Both the position numbers and the translations under genes were made by a program. Source: a virus. From it: a stretch of DNA of 23,087 nucleotides. This document shows, piece by piece, positions 1,595 to 20,505 of this stretch. A model generated the notes under the pieces. That model was given only the letters and a program-made list of their open reading frames with translations, searched no databases and was not told the origin of the DNA. Every line of letters begins with the position of its first letter. Positions within the stretch are counted from its first letter, which is position 1. The stretch is from positions 1 to 23,087 of IMG/VR virus record IMGVR_UViG_3300038701_001312, one strand, 5' to 3'.

Positions 1595-2043
1595 ACATCG
1601 AGAAAGTCAGGATACTGGAAATTGCTCACGCCAGACACCCGGATGATGATGACGCTTTCCGCAGGTGTGCTGAGTGGATGGCCGGGTTCTCCGGTGTTCA
1701 CGTTTCCTTTAAGCCGACGGTAGATCACATCGTTCAGGCAACAGCCAAGCGGTTCGATATGGAGCCTGACGTTCTGTACGGAGATGCCAGAGCGCAGCGG
1801 ATTGTCATTCCCCGGCATCTGGTCTGCCACGTCGCACATGAATGCTTCGGGCATGGACTTGCTCATATCGGGCGGGAACTCGGAGGCCGGGACCACACCA
1901 CCATACTGCACGCCCTGCGGACTGTTCAGGTGCATGCAGAGAGAGACAGAACCTACCCGGACCACATTCAGCATATAGCTGACCGGGCGATGGAGATTTC
2001 TGTTGCAGAAGCAAATGCACGGTTCGGGGAGCGGGCGGCTTGA
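1591..2043 (+). CDS. Stand-alone DnaA domain IV-like DNA-binding protein
   Basis: A 150-residue protein whose central and C-terminal part carries the DnaA box-binding domain: DHIVQATAKRF, then RIVIPRHLVCHVAHE, then GRDHTTILHALRTV near residues 110-123. GRDHTT with the following His is the diagnostic DnaA signature that contacts the DnaA box; the upstream PRH segment matches the PRQ of E. coli DnaA, with His replacing Gln. There is no AAA+ ATPase domain (no Walker motif), so it cannot itself melt an origin as DnaA does. Plausible roles are binding DnaA boxes on phage or host DNA, or competing with host DnaA. A Shine-Dalgarno-like GGAGGG lies 9-14 bases upstream of the ATG. It is flanked by a methyltransferase and, downstream, the phage replication genes, consistent with a replication or takeover role (inference). 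Confidence 0.85.
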   Translation: MNIEKVRILEIAHARHPDDDDAFRRCAEWMAGFSGVHVSFKPTVDHIVQATAKRFDMEPDVLYGDARAQRIVIPRHLVCHVAHECFGHGLAHIGRELGGRDHTTILHALRTVQVHAERDRTYPDHIQHIADRAMEISVAEANARFGERAA

Positions 2044-3077
2044 GCATTCGCATAATCAACAGCGATGTCCTCGCGGGTCTCGCAAGTCTTCCTGACAATA
2101 GCGTCGATTGCTGCGTCACCAGTCCGCCTTATTGGGGGCTGCGGGACTACGGCGTTGAAGGGCAGTTAGGTCTGGAGCCGACGCTCGTTGAACATATCGA
2201 AGCGATGGCTCGCGTGTTTGAGGAAGTGCGCCGGGTGCTGAAACCCGAAGGCACATGCTGGATGAATTACGGGGATTGCTATGCGACAACCCCGAACGGG
2301 CGTTCCGCTGCCGCAACAAAGGCTGCGGGCAATGATGACCGGACATTCCGTGACAAACCGTTTTCCACGATTGGCGGCGCATTAAAGGCGAAAGACCTTT
2401 GCATGATTCCAAACCGAATGGCTATCGCCTTGCAGGAAGCGGGCTGGTGGGTCCGGTCTGAAATTATCTGGCACAAACCAAACCCGATGCCGGAAAGCAT
2501 CACAGACCGGCCCGCAACGGCGCATGAGAAGGTATTCCTGCTGACTAAATCGGCGCGGTATTTCTATGACGCGGAGGCAGTGAGAGAGCCAGCGTCTGAA
2601 TCTTCTGTTGCCCGATGGTCGCAGAATATTGATAGCCAAGTTGGTTCAGATAGGGCGAACGGCGGCGCAAAAACAAATGGCAAAATGAAAGCCGTAGGCG
2701 GCCCCAAGAAAGACAAACAGCGTGGTCACTCTCGTCGCCATGCTGGGCTTAATGACCGGTGGGATAAAATGACCAAGGCGGAGCAGATGGCAAACGTCCG
2801 CAATCTTCGCAATGTCTGGACGATATCAACCGCGGCTTTCTCTGACGCTCACTTTGCCACATTTCCGCCCGCTCTGGTGGAAAACTGCATCAAGGCTGGA
2901 TGCCCGAAAGGCGGTCTTGTGCTGGATCCGTTCGGCGGTTCCGGAACAACGGGCATGGTGGCTGACAGGCTCGGTCGAGACGGAATTCTCATTGAACTCA
3001 ACCCTGAATATGCGGAAATGGCGCGTCGGCGGATATCGGCTGATGCTGGCATGTTCGCGGAGGTCGCAGCCGAATGA
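2040..3077 (+). CDS. Site-specific DNA methyltransferase, beta class (N4-cytosine or N6-adenine)
   Basis: A 345-residue protein with catalytic motif IV as TSPPYWGLRDYG at residues 27-38 and SAM-binding motif I as DPFGGSGTTG near residue 296, followed by IELNPEYAEMARRRI. The catalytic motif preceding the SAM motif is the beta-class order, with a target-recognition region between. SPPY is commonest in N4-cytosine enzymes, but base specificity cannot be read with certainty. The start is a TTG overlapping the preceding stop (TTGA) with GGGGAG about 10 bases upstream; no ATG occurs before motif IV, so the TTG is well supported. No restriction endonuclease is seen nearby, so this is an orphan phage methyltransferase, probably protecting phage DNA or affecting regulation (inference). 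Confidence 0.9.
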   Translation: MSIRIINSDVLAGLASLPDNSVDCCVTSPPYWGLRDYGVEGQLGLEPTLVEHIEAMARVFEEVRRVLKPEGTCWMNYGDCYATTPNGRSAAATKAAGNDDRTFRDKPFSTIGGALKAKDLCMIPNRMAIALQEAGWWVRSEIIWHKPNPMPESITDRPATAHEKVFLLTKSARYFYDAEAVREPASESSVARWSQNIDSQVGSDRANGGAKTNGKMKAVGGPKKDKQRGHSRRHAGLNDRWDKMTKAEQMANVRNLRNVWTISTAAFSDAHFATFPPALVENCIKAGCPKGGLVLDPFGGSGTTGMVADRLGRDGILIELNPEYAEMARRRISADAGMFAEVAAE

Positions 3078-15083: not shown

Positions 15084-15977
15084 ATGTCCACATCTATCGA
15101 TACCGCCTTCATCACCTCTTACGAGGCGAAGGTTCACGAGGTCTTCCAGCGGAAGGGTTCGTACCTCAAAGAAGCCGTTCGCATGAAAACCGACGTTGTC
15201 GGTTCGACTACGGTATTTCAGAAGATCGGCACCGGCACTGCGACGACGAAAGCGCGTCACGGCACCATCACGCCGATGAACCAGACCCACACCGCGCCGT
15301 CCTGCACGCTCGCAGACTTCTATGCCGGTGACTGGGTCGACAAACTCGATGAATCGAAAACCAACATCAACGAACGCGATGCTCTCGCGTCCGGCGGTGC
15401 GATGGCGCTTGGCCGCAAGGTCGACGACCAGATCGCCACGGTTCTCGATACCACCACGCAGGGCACGGTCACGCTCACGGTTACGTCAAAGGCTGCGATT
15501 CTTGCAACGGCGATTGGCTTCACCGAAGCGATCTGGGCCAACGACGTGCCGAACGATGGTGAGGTCTTCGCGGCGGTAACGCCCCGCTACTGGTCGCAGT
15601 TGATGACTGTCGATCAGTTCCAGCGTGCCGAATATGTCGGCGCGGATGGCCAGGCTTTCAAAACCGGCCCGTCAATCGGCCCCAGTAAATGGAAGGACTG
15701 GATGGGCGTCAAATGGAAGATGCAGACAGGTCTTCCGGGCGCCGGCACAGCGACTGCGAAGTGCTTTGCGTGGCACAAGCAGGCCGTCGGTTATGCCTCT
15801 GCGGCATGCGCCGGAAACGTCGCCGGTAACGAAGCCGTTGCCGCCGATATTACGTGGCACGGTGATCGCGCCGCGCATTTCGTCAACCACATGATGAGCG
15901 GTCAGGCCGTCCTCATCGATGACACGGGCGTCATCGAGGGCAACCTGAATGACACCACCGCCATCGCAACATCGTAA
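15084..15977 (+). CDS. Major capsid protein (Bbp17-like, podovirus type)
   Basis: A 297-residue protein. SIDTAFITSYEAKVHEVFQR, SYLKEAVRMKTDVVGSTTVF, ARHGTITPMNQTHTAPSC, DWVDKLDESKTNINERDALA, AVTPRYWSQLMTVDQFQRAE and the end HFVNHMMSGQAVLIDDTGVI are the hallmarks of HK97-fold capsid proteins of the PF19821 type from BPP-1-like podoviruses. It follows scaffold directly, and the ribosome site is GGAG, 7 bases from the ATG. The length is normal, with no internal break. It forms the icosahedral shell. Confidence 0.93.
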   Translation: MSTSIDTAFITSYEAKVHEVFQRKGSYLKEAVRMKTDVVGSTTVFQKIGTGTATTKARHGTITPMNQTHTAPSCTLADFYAGDWVDKLDESKTNINERDALASGGAMALGRKVDDQIATVLDTTTQGTVTLTVTSKAAILATAIGFTEAIWANDVPNDGEVFAAVTPRYWSQLMTVDQFQRAEYVGADGQAFKTGPSIGPSKWKDWMGVKWKMQTGLPGAGTATAKCFAWHKQAVGYASAACAGNVAGNEAVAADITWHGDRAAHFVNHMMSGQAVLIDDTGVIEGNLNDTTAIATS

Positions 15978-15990
15978 GGAGGGCTGAACA

Positions 15991-16359
15991 ATGGCTTTCA
16001 AGCTCAACGGTACCGGCGCAAACGGCACCAAGTTCTATCTCTGGCAGACCGCAGACATGGGGAACGGCATGAAGGAATGGTGCTATGTCACCGCCGACAC
16101 GCCCGCCGCCGTGGCTGTCTCTGGCTACCTCGATGGCGATGATGGTGACGAAGATCAGGACATGGCCATTTCCATGCTGTCGGTCGGTGACCGCATCTGG
16201 GTCTACCAGGTCGCGGCGATCGACGATACGCAGACCGTTCAGGCGGATATGGCAGGGGGTATCACCGATATCTCCCTGCACGCTGTTCTGATCAACAACG
16301 GCTCTTACGTGGACCTCTCCGAGGATCTGCTGGGGGCCACGGTGACCTACACCGCTTAA
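15991..16359 (+). CDS. Hypothetical protein after capsid, possible decoration protein
   Basis: A very strong ribosome site (AAGGAGGG, 7 bases before the ATG) suggests high expression. The 122-residue product is acidic and predicted to be beta-rich: MAFKLNGTGANGTKFYLWQT, WCYVTADTPAAVAVSGYLDG, DRIWVYQVAAIDDTQTVQAD, ending ATVTYTA. No family is certain; small beta proteins directly downstream of the capsid gene in podoviruses are often head decoration proteins, but that is a guess from position. A strong terminator follows 6 bases after the stop. Confidence 0.7.
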   Translation: MAFKLNGTGANGTKFYLWQTADMGNGMKEWCYVTADTPAAVAVSGYLDGDDGDEDQDMAISMLSVGDRIWVYQVAAIDDTQTVQADMAGGITDISLHAVLINNGSYVDLSEDLLGATVTYTA

Positions 16360-16365
16360 CAGACT

Positions 16366-16391
16366 GGCGGGGGCTTCGGCTCCCGCCTTTT
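16366..16391 (+). terminator. Rho-independent terminator with UUCG loop after capsid genes
   Basis: GGCGGGGGC (16366-16374), loop TTCG, GCTCCCGCC (16379-16387): nine pairs with one G-T wobble, then TTTT. The flanking CAGAC (16360-16364) and GTCTG (16394-16398) extend the symmetry. The position, between capsid and tail genes, is the same as Tphi behind gene 10 in T7, where a leaky terminator sets capsid excess. Confidence 0.85.
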
Positions 16392-16410: not shown

Positions 16411-16608
16411 ATGCAGACCGGAAAAATGAAACGCATGGCGCTTTCCCGGGAGCCGCAGGTCGTCCGCGCCGTTATCGAGACGGAAGGCGAGGCTGAGGTT
16501 GTTATCGGAAAGACCATCAAGCATGTCGGCGGGGGCTTTTACGAACTCCCTGACGGCACGAAAATCAAGGGCAAGGCAAAGGCCGAGGCCGCTCTTGCCG
16601 ACCTCTGA
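16411..16608 (+). CDS. Small hypothetical protein, 65 aa
   Basis: ATG 16411 with AAAGGAG 5 bases upstream, the first gene after the terminator. The product is small and basic: MQTGKMKRMALSREPQVVRA, then EAEVVIGKTIKHVGGGFYEL, PDGTKIKGKAKAEAALADL. The pattern of a beta-hairpin (GGGFYELPDGTKIKGK) with a C-terminal helix is seen in small podovirus proteins next to the capsid genes; no function is known to me. Its last 14 bases overlap the TTG start of the next gene. Confidence 0.7.
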   Translation: MQTGKMKRMALSREPQVVRAVIETEGEAEVVIGKTIKHVGGGFYELPDGTKIKGKAKAEAALADL

Positions 16609-17155
16609 GCCCGCCTATCCTCACAGTCACTCTGGCACGGCTCTCGTCTGCGGCAACGCATTCTGCCTGATGGATGACGTGAGAAAAGCCAGAGAATTGT
16701 TCCCCGACGCTCCGGCGATTGTCGTCAATGGGGCCTCGGGGAACCTCAAGGCTATAGCACTATTTTCCATGCATCCCCAGAAACTGCCGGTCTGGGCTGA
16801 TCTGCAGCGCAGGAAATTCGGCGAGGGATTCAATCTGCACGGCAGAGCCAAGGCAAACTACTTCGAGCGCGCCCGCAAGAGTATGCCATGGGTTGATTAC
16901 TGGTGGCAGGACTGCTCCGGCGCGACCTCGACATGGGCGGCCCGCAAGGTCGCTGCGGGCATGGGTTTCGATCAGGTCATTCTCTGCGGCATGCCGCTGG
17001 AGAAAGGCACCTATCAGGGTGGGAAGATCGCCAAGGATTTCATGCGAGACGACGTTCTCGCGCATTACCGCCGGCTGCTCGAAAGAGACACCGGCTGGCA
17101 TGAGGGAGTCAAGTCAATGAGCGGCTGGACAGCAGAATTACTGGGGTCTCCCTGA
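16595..17155 (+). CDS. DUF115/MptE-like Rossmann protein, possible sugar-transfer enzyme
   Basis: The frame is open further upstream but the best start is TTG 16595, with GAGG 6 bases before it; an ATG at 16670 would cut off the first strand. 186 residues: GTALVCGNAFCLMDDVRKAR (15-34) opens a Rossmann-like fold, FPDAPAIVVNG follows, and DCSGATSTWAARKVAAGMGF then DQVILCGMPLEKGTY (107-140) match the S-G-x-x-A-x-x-A-x-x-LGF-x-x-I-x-L-x-G-M pattern of the DUF115/MptE-like family, which includes flagellin-glycosylation MAF-type proteins. It heads a four-gene cassette with a methyltransferase and two glycosyltransferases. Exact activity is unknown. Confidence 0.6.
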   Translation: MPTSEPAYPHSHSGTALVCGNAFCLMDDVRKARELFPDAPAIVVNGASGNLKAIALFSMHPQKLPVWADLQRRKFGEGFNLHGRAKANYFERARKSMPWVDYWWQDCSGATSTWAARKVAAGMGFDQVILCGMPLEKGTYQGGKIAKDFMRDDVLAHYRRLLERDTGWHEGVKSMSGWTAELLGSP

Positions 17156-17709
17156 TGGTGGCCGTCAGACGAAAAGACCGGTCGAGGGTGATCTATGAAC
17201 TTGTGAGAAAACACGGCTGGAAGACTGGCGCTGAACTCGGTGTGTTTTCCGGAAAGACCTTTCTCTATCTGTTGGAGACCTGCCCGGACCTGAACATGGT
17301 CGGAGTGGACACATGGGAACCGGCGCCGGAGACCGTGGAGAAGGCCCCCGGCGGTCGCAGTTATGCCTCTCACAACCTCAACGGATACTATGAGGCCCTT
17401 AAGCGCGACATCGGGCCTTATTCCGAACGGGCCGCCCTGTTGAGAATGCCGACGGTCGAGGCTGCGTCGAAGTTTCCGGACGGGCATTTTGATTTCGTCT
17501 TCATCGACGCCGATCACCGGGTCGAAGGGGTCTCCGCCGACATTCTCGCATGGGGTCCGAAAGTCTCGGACAGAGGCTGGCTCATGGGGCATGATTTTCA
17601 GCGGAAGTTTCCCGGCGTGATTCAGTCCGTCAGAGAAATGCTGCCTCGCTACAGGCTCTATTCCGACAGCGTCTGGGCGGTGTCAAAAGCCGACACGGTG
17701 TTCGCATGA
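17155..17709 (+). CDS. Class I SAM-dependent methyltransferase (Methyltransf_24-like)
   Basis: 184 residues. Motif I AELGVFSGKTFLYLL at 26-40, acidic end of strand two VGVDTW at 49-54 (Asp 52), and FDFVFIDADHRVEGVSADIL, the motif IV/V region in which the D-A-D-H is typical of Methyltransf_24 small-molecule and sugar methylases; later LMGHDFQRKFPGV. It lacks the NPPY or PC motifs of DNA methylases, so a sugar or polypeptide target is more likely. ATG shares a base with the preceding stop (TGATG), and its stop overlaps the first glycosyltransferase gene. It probably methylates a sugar in the same pathway (inference). Confidence 0.85.
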   Translation: MVAVRRKDRSRVIYELVRKHGWKTGAELGVFSGKTFLYLLETCPDLNMVGVDTWEPAPETVEKAPGGRSYASHNLNGYYEALKRDIGPYSERAALLRMPTVEAASKFPDGHFDFVFIDADHRVEGVSADILAWGPKVSDRGWLMGHDFQRKFPGVIQSVREMLPRYRLYSDSVWAVSKADTVFA

Positions 17710-18383
17710 TTGTCGTCTGCTTTCTCTGGTCTGACCCTAAATACCGGTTCGGACTCCGATACACAGCGGACCATGTGAACCGGTTGAACAGGATGCTCGG
17801 ACGGCATCTGAAATCACATGAACTGGTTTGCGTCACGGATACGCAGGAGGGCATCGACAGTGATGTGAGAATCGTTCCGCTCTGGGATGACCACAGGAAT
17901 ATCGGCGGCACCTATGTCCGGATGAAACTGTTTTCCCCGGAGATGAAAGACCTGATCGGCGAGCGGTTTGCGCTGATGGATCTGGACTGCGTGATCACCG
18001 GGCCGCTCGATCCATTGTTCGAGACGGATGCGGACTTTGTAACGACCCGAAGCTCTCACCATGCGACGCATTACAATACAGGGTTCTTTCTGCTCAGGGC
18101 GGGGGCGAGAAAGGAAGTCTGGGAACGGTTCAGCCCCCCTGGCTCGCTCCGGGATATAGCACTTTCAGGGGCCATCGGATGGGAACAGGCATGGGTTTCG
18201 CTGGTTCTCGGGCCGAACGAAAAGACATGGGGCGAAGGCGAGGGCATTTTGAACTTCCGCCGCGACGTTGAGGGTCGCAATCTCCCAGATGGGGCGAGGG
18301 CTGTGTTCTTCCCCGGCGATTACGACCCGTCTGACGAAAAACTCCGGGCCACAAACCCATGGATTGAGACGCACTGGTGCTGA
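17706..18383 (+). CDS. GT8-like glycosyltransferase, first of a tandem pair
   Basis: A 225-residue protein, MIVVCFLWSDPKYRFGLRYT start, VCVTDTQEGIDSDVRIVPLW, then ALMDLDCVITGPLDPLF with the DxD metal/nucleotide-sugar motif at 92-94, then FFLLRAGARKEVWE and the end VFFPGDYDPSDEKL. The architecture is a compact GT-A fold as in LgtC-like GT8 enzymes. It is clearly paralogous to the next gene over its entire length. In the final motif the paralog has HG where this copy has PG (Pro 203), the position that in GT8 enzymes is a metal-binding His; so metal use or activity may differ. ATG overlaps the methyltransferase stop by four bases. Confidence 0.8.
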   Translation: MIVVCFLWSDPKYRFGLRYTADHVNRLNRMLGRHLKSHELVCVTDTQEGIDSDVRIVPLWDDHRNIGGTYVRMKLFSPEMKDLIGERFALMDLDCVITGPLDPLFETDADFVTTRSSHHATHYNTGFFLLRAGARKEVWERFSPPGSLRDIALSGAIGWEQAWVSLVLGPNEKTWGEGEGILNFRRDVEGRNLPDGARAVFFPGDYDPSDEKLRATNPWIETHWC

Positions 18384-19111
18384 CGGTCGTCTGCTGGCTC
18401 TGGAGAGACGAAAACTACCGGTTCAACAGCCTGTTCAGATATGGGCCTGAGCATGTCAACACGCTGCGGGCAATGGTTCGCCGTAATCTGTCAATTGACC
18501 ATGAATTCGCCTGCATTACCGATGATCCGCAGGGGATCGATGAGGATATCCGCATTATTCCGCTCTGGGATGACCTGAAGGAACTCGGGGGCTGTTACCG
18601 GCGGCTGAAGGCCTTCGCTCCGGAGATGAAGGAGATTATCGGCAAGCGTTTCGTCTGGATCGACGTTGACTGCGTGGTCACCGGTGATTTGACGCCTTTG
18701 TTCACTCGCACGGAACCCCTCGTGATCTGGTCGAACGGCTACGGCGCAAACCCTTACTGCGGCTCTATGGTGATGATGGACGCCGGCGCTCACGAAGAGG
18801 TCTGGTCCGGGTTTGACCCGACGGACTCCATACGGGCGGCGTGCGCCAAAGGGTATGTTGGGACCGATCAGGCGTGGATTGCCACGAAGGTTCCCGACGC
18901 AGCGACATGGACCCGTAAAGACGGGGTTCTGAGCCGCTACGACGTTGGAGTTGTTAACTCGAAACTTGCCGGACGCGCCCGGCGGCTCGGGGGGACGCAA
19001 AGCCCCCCGGAGGATGCGCGGATTGTATTTTTTCACGGACCTTTCGACCCGTCGCACGCCGCGACGCGCGACCGCTGTCCATGGCTCACCGACCATTACA
19101 GGAAAGACTGA
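18377..19111 (+). CDS. GT8-like glycosyltransferase, second of a tandem pair
   Basis: A 244-residue protein with GTG start overlapping the stop of its paralog by 7 bases. TVVCWLWRDENYRF, FACITDDPQGIDEDIRIIPL, FVWIDVDCVVTGDLTPLF (DVD at 96-98), MVMMDAGAHEEVW, GTDQAWIA and the end VFFHGPFDPSHAAT. DxD plus the late HG-x-x-x-P (His 220) match the Mn-binding and sugar-nucleotide residues of GT8-type GT-A enzymes, so this copy looks catalytically complete. Blocks shared with the previous gene (YRF, HVN-x-L, TD-x-x-x-GID, PLWDD, PEMK, DCV-x-TG) show an ancestral duplication. The donor and acceptor are unknown. Confidence 0.83.
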   Translation: MLTVVCWLWRDENYRFNSLFRYGPEHVNTLRAMVRRNLSIDHEFACITDDPQGIDEDIRIIPLWDDLKELGGCYRRLKAFAPEMKEIIGKRFVWIDVDCVVTGDLTPLFTRTEPLVIWSNGYGANPYCGSMVMMDAGAHEEVWSGFDPTDSIRAACAKGYVGTDQAWIATKVPDAATWTRKDGVLSRYDVGVVNSKLAGRARRLGGTQSPPEDARIVFFHGPFDPSHAATRDRCPWLTDHYRKD

Positions 19112-19597
19112 ATGATGCTGAAGATTGCCCCGCAGGAATTCCACGTTCTCAACGACCGCTTTGTGATCAAGACCCGCGTACCGGTGGAAAGCATTGCCGA
19201 CGCTGACCTGATGCTGCGTATCCGCGCCGCCAATCTCGCGCCGGGCGATCAGGTGACGGTTCAGAGTTTCGACCACGGCTACGACAACCTGCTTGCCGAA
19301 GCGGAATACCGGGTCACAGGCAGGCGCGACGACCTGAAACTGATCGATGATGTGCGCGGCCCCCGGCAGGTCACCGAGACGGCGTTTCTGATTGCCCGCA
19401 AGGGTGAATGGTGGATCGCCCCGAGTGCAGATGCGAAGGGCGCAGAGGCGGCAGGACTGTCGCTGTCTCACAAAGGGGGCGGCACCTTCGTTGTCCTTGA
19501 TGGAGAGGGCGGGGAACAGGCCGTCTTCACCAAAGAGGACGGCGGCAAGTCCGCAGCAGAAGCCTTCCTCGCCGAAGCGCAGAAGGTGGCGGCGTGA
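19112..19597 (+). CDS. Conserved phage protein, 161 aa, function unknown
   Basis: ATG 19112 immediately follows the preceding stop; GGAAAG lies 5 bases upstream. It begins MMLKIAPQEFHVLNDRFVIK, a start I associate with small conserved proteins in podovirus tail regions, then LAPGDQVTVQSFDHGYDNLL and AEYRVTGRRDD, AFLIARKGEWWIAP; the final third is Gly/Ala-rich with GGGTFVVLDGEGGEQAVFTK. Probably beta-rich. Its position after the glycosyltransferases, rejoining the tail genes, suggests it belongs to the virion module rather than the cassette. No firm family. Confidence 0.65.
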   Translation: MMLKIAPQEFHVLNDRFVIKTRVPVESIADADLMLRIRAANLAPGDQVTVQSFDHGYDNLLAEAEYRVTGRRDDLKLIDDVRGPRQVTETAFLIARKGEWWIAPSADAKGAEAAGLSLSHKGGGTFVVLDGEGGEQAVFTKEDGGKSAAEAFLAEAQKVAA

Positions 19598-19887
19598 TGC
19601 CCTGGTTCATAGCAGTCTCCGCCATCTTAGCGACGGTGGTACTCTGCGTTCTCTCGTATCGCTCAGAAAGGCGGGCGATCACGCTGCGGGCGGATTTTCT
19701 CCGGCGCGTGATGTATTGCCGGGCGCTGCGTCGAGACAGCAGGAGCAAGGCCCATCCGAAACCCGACCCGTTTCGCGCGTATGCGGACAGCATCATAGAC
19801 CACCCGGCATGGCTGTTTAAGCGGACGATATCGCTCGAAACACCCGCACCCCTCGATGAAAACGCCGGAATTCCAACGGGAACCTGA
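19597..19887 (+). CDS. Single-membrane-span hypothetical protein, 96 aa
   Basis: ATG 19597 shares a base with the preceding stop (TGATG); a GTG three bases earlier is an alternative. Residues 3-21 (WFIAVSAILATVVLCVLSY) form one membrane span, followed at once by basic RSERRAITLRADFLRRV, so the positive-inside rule predicts N-outside, C-inside topology. The rest is hydrophilic. Lysis proteins with one span exist, but i-spanins have the opposite orientation and pinholins are shorter, so I make no lysis claim. It lies between a conserved small gene and tail tubular protein A. Confidence 0.6.
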   Translation: MPWFIAVSAILATVVLCVLSYRSERRAITLRADFLRRVMYCRALRRDSRSKAHPKPDPFRAYADSIIDHPAWLFKRTISLETPAPLDENAGIPTGT

Positions 19888-19890
19888 TCC

Positions 19891-20505
19891 ATGACCGCAG
19901 AAACGGACATCGTCAACGTCGCCCTTCGACTGATCGGTGCGCAGCCTATCACGTCATTAAGCGACGGGACAAAAAGCGCCAACGCAGCCGACGACATTTA
20001 TACCGAACTGCTCGACGATGTTCTGCGCACGCATAACTGGAACTTTGCAACAAAGCGCCAGAAGCTCGCCAGATCATCGACAGCCCCTGCGTTTGAATTC
20101 GACTATGCCTATGCCGTACCGAGCGACTGGTTGAAGACAGTTTCCGTCCATGACAACGACGCCGGAACAGGAACGCTTTTCTACCGGGAGGAACTGGTCG
20201 CAGATCAGAGGGTGATTTGCACCAGCGCCAGCGAAGTATACCTCCGGTATATCGGCAGGGTTACTGACCCGAACTTAATGCCGGCCGATTTCCGCAGGGT
20301 GTTTCAAACTGCCCTTGCGCGCGATCTGGCCGTCCCGGTTGCATCATCAAACACACTCGCCGACCTGATGGCGCGCGATCATCGCCGGGCGCTGGCAAGG
20401 GCGCGATCTGGTGACGCCATGGGATCCTTTCCCGAACAGCGCCCGCGAGGGTCCTGGGCTTCTTCTCGCGGCGGCAGATGGCCTCGCGGCTCGGCCGGGG
20501 GTTAA
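19891..20505 (+). CDS. Tail tubular protein A (T7 gp11-like)
   Basis: A 204-residue head-completion/tail protein. TAETDIVNVALRLIGAQPIT, SLSDGTKSANAADDIYTELL, DVLRTHNWNFATKRQKLA, YAVPSDWLKTV, LRYIGRVTDPNLMPADFRRV, FQTALARDLAVPV are the conserved blocks of the gp11/tail tubular A family, which forms the dodecameric ring joining portal to nozzle. The last 25 residues are a Gly/Arg/Ser-rich tail (RPRGSWASSRGGRW), longer and more basic than I expect for the family. It begins three bases after the preceding stop and lies just before tail tubular protein B. Confidence 0.93.
   Translation: MTAETDIVNVALRLIGAQPITSLSDGTKSANAADDIYTELLDDVLRTHNWNFATKRQKLARSSTAPAFEFDYAYAVPSDWLKTVSVHDNDAGTGTLFYREELVADQRVICTSASEVYLRYIGRVTDPNLMPADFRRVFQTALARDLAVPVASSNTLADLMARDHRRALARARSGDAMGSFPEQRPRGSWASSRGGRWPRGSAGG

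Follow-up and report, generated by a model that had tools for sequence, protein, structure and literature searches.

A probable virion-glycosylation cassette in an exchangeable slot beside a podovirus capsid gene

Here, we find that four consecutive genes of a podovirus, termed A to D, occupy a variable slot between g22 and g28/tail tubular protein A (TubA), which relatives with a 79-86% identical major capsid protein (MCP) leave empty or fill with other sugar operons. On balance, we think it probable that the cassette builds a methylated glycan in the cytoplasm on a virion protein, with g22 or MCP as the most likely acceptor, and that the slot is exchangeable. This suggests that these phages give their own virions sugar coats that can be swapped. 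The window, by which we mean the whole stretch of DNA analysed (IMGVR_UViG_3300038701_001312, 23,087 bases), encodes terminase, portal, protease, a Phage_capsid_2 capsid protein and tail tubular proteins A and B. It is probably a fragment, because the sequence stops short of the remaining tail genes. No DNA similarity of the window to named phages was found.

The original prediction placed a four-gene sugar/methyl modification cassette at 16595-19111, and four open reading frames are indeed found there, with overlaps of 1 (A/B), 4 (B/C) and 7 (C/D) bases (Table 1). Each has homologues with conserved residues; therefore, these are not chance reading frames. The GC content of the cassette (0.583) is like that of its flanks (0.58-0.59) and thus gives no hint of recent import. 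The layout around the cassette had to be revised in two respects. The strong terminator said to lie directly before it is real, but adjoins g22, with g23 between terminator and A; the tail genes do lie downstream, but g28 and g29 intervene. It is plausible that the terminator allows abundant production of capsid protein and g22, with the enzymes made in lower quantity by read-through. A starts with TTG and overlaps g23 by 14 bases. No g23 homologue was found among the fetched loci of relatives, and g23 is not clearly a member of the cassette. As a separate observation, the C-terminal stretches of g23 and g28 are alike (GGGFYELPDGTKIKGKAKAEAALADL / GGGTFVVLDGEGGEQAVFTKEDGGKSAAEAFL), perhaps representing one small structural domain used twice.

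Table 1. Features of the cassette and its surroundings in the window.
Feature	Position	Strand	Basis
Major capsid protein MCP (Phage_capsid_2), upstream anchor of the slot	15084..15977	+	PF19821 E 2e-52; phrog_3437; PDB 9eg4_A E 9.2e-27
g22, putative capsid decoration protein, candidate glycan acceptor	15991..16359	+	40-member profile versus 9eg4_H
Intrinsic terminator after MCP-g22, UUCG tetraloop	16366..16395 (hairpin 16366-16387 plus U tract)	+	-25 kcal/mol, z -5.6
g23, 65 aa	16411..16608	+	C-terminal match to phrog_6480
A, MptE/DUF115/GT42-like putative glycosyltransferase	16595..17155	+	family alignment, model, Foldseek, weak sialyltransferase profile matches
B, class I SAM methyltransferase (Methyltransf_24), putative sugar O-methyltransferase	17155..17709	+	Pfam, motifs
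C, GT8-like glycosyltransferase paralogue	17706..18383	+	DLD 92-94, H to P at 203, E160-Q161
D, GT8-like glycosyltransferase, GTG start	18377..19111	+	DVD 96-98, D164-Q165, H220
g28, downstream boundary of the slot	19112..19597	+	38-48% identity to L106 and L103 proteins
g29, last gene before TubA	19594..19887		
Tail tubular protein A (TubA), downstream anchor	19891..20505	+	PF17212 E 7e-6; phrog_394

A had been labelled a DUF115/MptE-like protein, and this label is right at the level of fold, although the Pfam match is not significant. A scan with the single A sequence (186 aa) gave no match, and Pfam MptE-like (PF01973) scored E 0.31 (11.3 bits versus a gathering cut-off of 34.6). We gathered and aligned 55 members of the A family from viral contigs, 3 of which match PF01973 at E<=0.1 (best 3.8e-6). 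In the predicted structure of the family (pLDDT 92.9), A shares the fold of the MptE-like/DUF115/GT42 superfamily: Foldseek matches the model to archaeal MptE/HPPK (8sd5, E 2.5e-5), sialyltransferase CstII (1ro7, E 3.0e-4) and a Maf glycosyltransferase (5mu5, 2.4e-3), each with prob 1.00 and TMq of 0.52-0.59. Invariant or nearly so across the family are G20, H60, G110 (Ala in the A of the window), S112, G132-x-P134 and a C-terminal SMSGWT motif (174-179). CMP-sugar synthetase was considered as a partner of A and rejected, being present in only 3 of 25 records, all 3 lacking A, so that the idea of a CMP-activated donor comes from the fold alone. In the records of L108 and L121, A is broken by one stop codon (G029:9200-9730, G009:20369-20863), and in L242 (3365-3610) B is shortened to 81 aa; these lesions suggest that parts of the cassette may be decaying in the three loci.

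The SAM methyltransferase of the original prediction is borne out by gene B, which matches Methyltransf_24 (PF13578) at E 2.6e-16, with 60.9 bits against a gathering cut-off of 26.3, and carries the motifs AELGV (26), GVD (50), FIDADH and GHD. The 'DNA methyltransferase' label that phrog_2675 attaches to B is misleading, as B is a small Methyltransf_24 protein with no DPPY/NPPY motif. The two paralogous DxD glycosyltransferases stand as such (C and D are 43% identical and both have DxD), but they are not necessarily equivalent as catalysts. Each matches the glycosyltransferase family phrog_1962 at E of about 1e-16. The modelled structure of D has a GT-A fold of GT8 type, like that of LgtC and glycogenin (Foldseek E 3.8e-9), which makes D GT8-like at the level of fold. 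The profile of the glycosyltransferase (GT) family matches Skp1 galactosyltransferase (1.5e-5) and glycogenin (about 5e-4), both of which have protein or protein-linked acceptors. GT8 enzymes are marked by DxD plus a C-terminal HxxGxxKPW motif; D has H220-G but DPS in place of KPW, and in C the metal-site histidine that most family members carry in HxG is replaced by Pro203, with EQ replacing DQ. Because of these two substitutions, C and D may differ catalytically, and C may have a changed activity or work as a helper subunit. A recent duplication giving rise to C and D is unsupported: on weakly supported branches, D groups more closely with the lone GTs of L002 and L242, whereas the GT of L241 is the nearer one to C. 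The mixed GT alignment is too diverse for a pattern search.

Do these genes travel together? Non-co-occurrence would have spoken against a common function, and we observe the opposite. In the same slot, A, a methyltransferase (MT) and a GT recur in L002 (47, 47 and 55% identity to the window, respectively), L142 (42, 49, 51%) and L241 (42, 49, 53%), the last with an added gene judged by eye from its sequence to be sulfotransferase-like. A and GT also occupy the slot in L242, with the truncated MT, and in L247 and L033, with unrelated MT-like genes. The families were delimited by an HMM search with length limits, which keeps MT and GT labels apart in view of an MT-GT fusion. Of 54 de-duplicated A loci, 23 have the GT family, adjoining or fused to A in 12. 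The fusions comprise GT-A (L052, L056), A-GT (L039, L061) and MT-GT (L024). Recurrence and fusion together are strong evidence that A, MT and GT would act in one pathway. The cassette is nonetheless a toolkit and not a fixed set; C is optional, and most relatives have one GT. The genes neighbouring the A family encode head and neck proteins. The A and GT families of siphoviruses likewise have capsid, neck and tail-completion genes around them; in L004, the interval from head connector to head closure contains two GTs, an MptE-like protein, methyltransferases, an SIS-domain isomerase, an APS kinase and a sulfotransferase. A Pfam tally of the genes just downstream of the A cassettes (L002-L079) also includes the anti-CBASS protein Acb1 (5 members) and the ADP-ribosyltransferase domain ADPrib_exo_Tox (2).

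To view the slot independently of A, we anchored a survey on the capsid gene. Among the contigs that span the slot from end to end, there are 20 in which no more than one or two small genes separate MCP/g22 from the tail tubular genes. The empty-site relative L106 has the order g22, g28, TubA, with g28 the sole gene between g22 and TubA and A absent from the record; its proteins are 64% (portal), 79% (MCP), 38% (g28), 66% (TubA) and 72% (TubB) identical to those of the window. In other close relatives (MCP 80-86%; L083, L084, L094 and others), A-GT is followed by a sugar operon encoding a B12-radical SAM protein, E1-alpha/E1-beta-like TPP proteins, an RfbH-like aminotransferase, a 4,6-dehydratase, a cytidylyltransferase-like protein and a heptose-kinase-like GHMP kinase. 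L144 and L115 have a different set, with CTP_transf_3 in both, and WbuX and a His_biosynth protein in L144; genes of WbuX type are acetamidino-sugar genes. Across slots, the Pfam tally includes DegT aminotransferase, GDP_Man_Dehyd/Polysacc_synt_2, GHMP kinase, cytidylyltransferases, B12-radical SAM and E1/TPP families, and individual genes can be likened to RfbH, HddA and WbuX. Apart from the building of a glycan, we can think of nothing that would explain why such genes are gathered in this slot. Mapped on the MCP tree, slot occupancy requires at least 8 changes, only 3 of which are forced by well supported branches.

Two further observations concern the contents of these loci. Nine of them (L083, L084, L094, L096, L102, L107, L110, L111, L121) carry B12-radical SAM, E1-alpha/E1-beta TPP, RfbH-like aminotransferase, dehydratase and sugar kinase genes in varied combinations, which looks like a phage-borne route to an unusual and perhaps branched deoxysugar. 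Another group (L169-L240), from Azospirillum, Micavibrio, Roseospira and other alphaproteobacterial genomes, has a compact MCP-g22-TubA-TubB cluster with the slot nearly or wholly empty, possibly a conserved prophage or gene-transfer-agent-like element.

In relatives, g22 lies directly 3′ of MCP. With a profile of 40 g22 members, the sole PDB match below E 0.02 is 9eg4_H, 'orf16' (E 0.0086, weak); the g22 sequence of the window alone does not match orf16. The sole match of the MCP profile is chain A of the same structure, which contains 7 chains each of capsid protein and orf16. Because orf16 partners an MCP homologue in 9eg4, g22 is probably a capsid decoration protein. It varies far more than the capsid: window and L085 are 84% identical in MCP versus 28% in g22. 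The nearest neighbour by g22 predicts slot occupancy in 39 of 42 cases, versus 32 of 42 by MCP, and an insert in g22 is found in 15 of 24 occupied loci and 0 of 18 empty ones. On the MCP tree, the association between insert and cassette is not significant, with 3 supported independent pairs being too few, and a composition test found no Ser/Thr enrichment of g22 in occupied slots. The link between g22 and cassette thus makes g22 a candidate acceptor, and plain linkage could explain it as well. Variants of g22 in L085, L106, L112, L144 and L115 are about 190-225 aa long with an extra C-terminal region, like orf16 of 9eg4 (269 aa); this region may be displayed on the capsid.

From these data we infer activities, donors, order of steps, acceptor and benefit as follows. 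The four genes would constitute a compact glycan cassette within the late operon. D, and perhaps C, would transfer a hexose from host UDP-sugars onto a newly made virion protein in the host cytoplasm; A, with its sialyltransferase/Maf/MptE fold, would add a further sugar, perhaps CMP-activated; and B would O-methylate the glycan. The acceptor would most likely be a capsid surface protein, either g22 next door or MCP. The cassette of the window lacks sugar-nucleotide genes, which suggests the use of host donors, while relatives bring their own pathways. Since the slot is exchangeable, related capsids would bear different sugars or none. The benefit could be shielding from receptors, antibodies or predators, or could lie in adsorption. 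A bolder proposal, which we advance only tentatively, is that the slot is a serotype-like locus, in which a g22-type decoration protein and a sugar cassette are exchanged as one unit on a near-constant capsid. Its contents would range from nothing, via simple methylated-hexose sets as in the window, to complete routes to rare 6-deoxy or acetamidino sugars that are possibly branched, and phages would thus vary their surface glycans much as bacteria vary O-antigens.

The original prediction had named the virion, modified DNA bases or the host surface as the target of a sugar/methyl modification. That the enzymes cooperate is well supported by co-occurrence, fusions and the sugar-nucleotide operons of the slot, and position favours the virion, although late-operon genes can serve non-virion targets too. 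The enzymes might, for example, alter LPS or capsule sugars of the host late in infection, blocking superinfection or re-adsorption of progeny to debris. GT8 enzymes such as LgtC, whose fold D matches, build lipooligosaccharide, CstII-like sialyltransferases work on the same molecule, and RfbH- and WbuX-type proteins belong to O-antigen pathways in bacteria. We nevertheless regard this explanation as unlikely, because A-D have no predicted membrane segment (their highest Kyte-Doolittle mean over 19 residues is 1.24) and because, in the annotated slots, we could recognise no gene for a flippase, membrane anchor, polymerase or lipid-carrier transferase. A-D include none of the components of gtr-type seroconversion (membrane flippase, membrane-bound transferases GtrA and GtrB), and the position of the cassettes is fixed within virion genes in both podo- and siphoviruses.

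It is also conceivable that a tail or neck protein, and not the capsid or its decoration protein, is glycosylated. The cassette adjoins g28, g29 and the tail tubular genes too, and capsid and tail-tube subunits are both described as glycosylated in mycobacteriophages (PMC12619734). Yet it is g22 that varies with the cassette, as in the comparison with L085, and not the tail genes, TubA and TubB of the empty L106 being 66-72% identical to those of the window; a tail or neck acceptor is therefore rather improbable. Hypermodification of DNA is known for phage glycosyltransferases (Pyle 2024, as cited in PMC12619734; PMC12838424), and the window has a DNA methyltransferase gene at 2040-3077. That the cassette puts sugars on virion DNA to evade restriction we nevertheless consider very improbable, because no base-hydroxymethylating partner was found: a thymidylate synthase/hydroxymethylase homologue (PF00303) occurs in 1 of 21 cassette records, many of them incomplete, and in none of the annotated genes of the window, itself a fragment. 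Moreover, the cassettes sit among head genes, not replication genes.

Glycosylation of a virion protein thus remains our preferred reading, and it would matter in several ways. Sugar coats of phage particles are documented in few systems. Close relatives in which this widespread slot is empty or filled with different sugar pathways are natural matched pairs for studying what virion glycans do in shielding, adsorption, stability and avoidance of antibodies or predators, and the slot cassettes are a source of new protein glycosyltransferases.

Several known systems bear comparison. In phage P1, the late cluster pmgO-pmgP-ppp-pmgQ encodes two DUF115-type relatives of A, PmgO and PmgP, as well as PmgQ, which is distantly homologous to the GTs (23% identity). 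The homologies are weak, however, and the P1 cluster has no methyltransferase, has the phosphatase gene ppp in between and is not next to the capsid gene. CRISPRi and knockouts show that P1 can do without pmgO, pmgP and pmgQ (PMC10695390). Our cassette offers a testable function for these three unassigned genes. Tetraselmis viridis virus S20 / SI1 has a GT (40% identity to D), an annotated sialyltransferase and a methyltransferase between capsid-region genes and head closure Hc1, but differs in its siphovirus-type gene order, in having more GTs, and in that its MT and A are only distantly related. Like the fusions, these relatives in P1 and S20 tie the enzymes together in function. Maf flagellin glycosyltransferases and CstII sialyltransferases have a fold in common with A (5mu5, 1ro7), whereas A measures only 186 aa, reaches no Pfam-level match and carries an SMSGWT motif of its own. 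Megavirinae encode clade-specific pathways for rare, bacterial-like sugars of capsid fibrils at the particle surface (PMC10117803), but these are eukaryotic giant viruses with unrelated particles and genes. A further parallel is found in mycobacteriophages, whose virions are glycosylated by phage GTs, with MTs named alongside (cited in PMC12619734, PMC13313380, PMC12691614). Phage-encoded GTs are proposed there to decorate capsid and tail proteins (Freeman et al. 2023, via citing papers), and the cassette of the window likewise has phage-encoded GT genes (C, D) and an MT gene (B). The hosts differ, and the accounts in those citing papers describe neither an A-type enzyme nor an exchangeable slot on the capsid side. 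In the open-access literature, we found no paper that describes DUF115-type proteins by phage capsid genes or a phage slot for exchangeable glycan genes on the capsid side. Virion glycosylation itself is thus known from mycobacteriophages, and the exchangeable capsid-side slot appears to be new.
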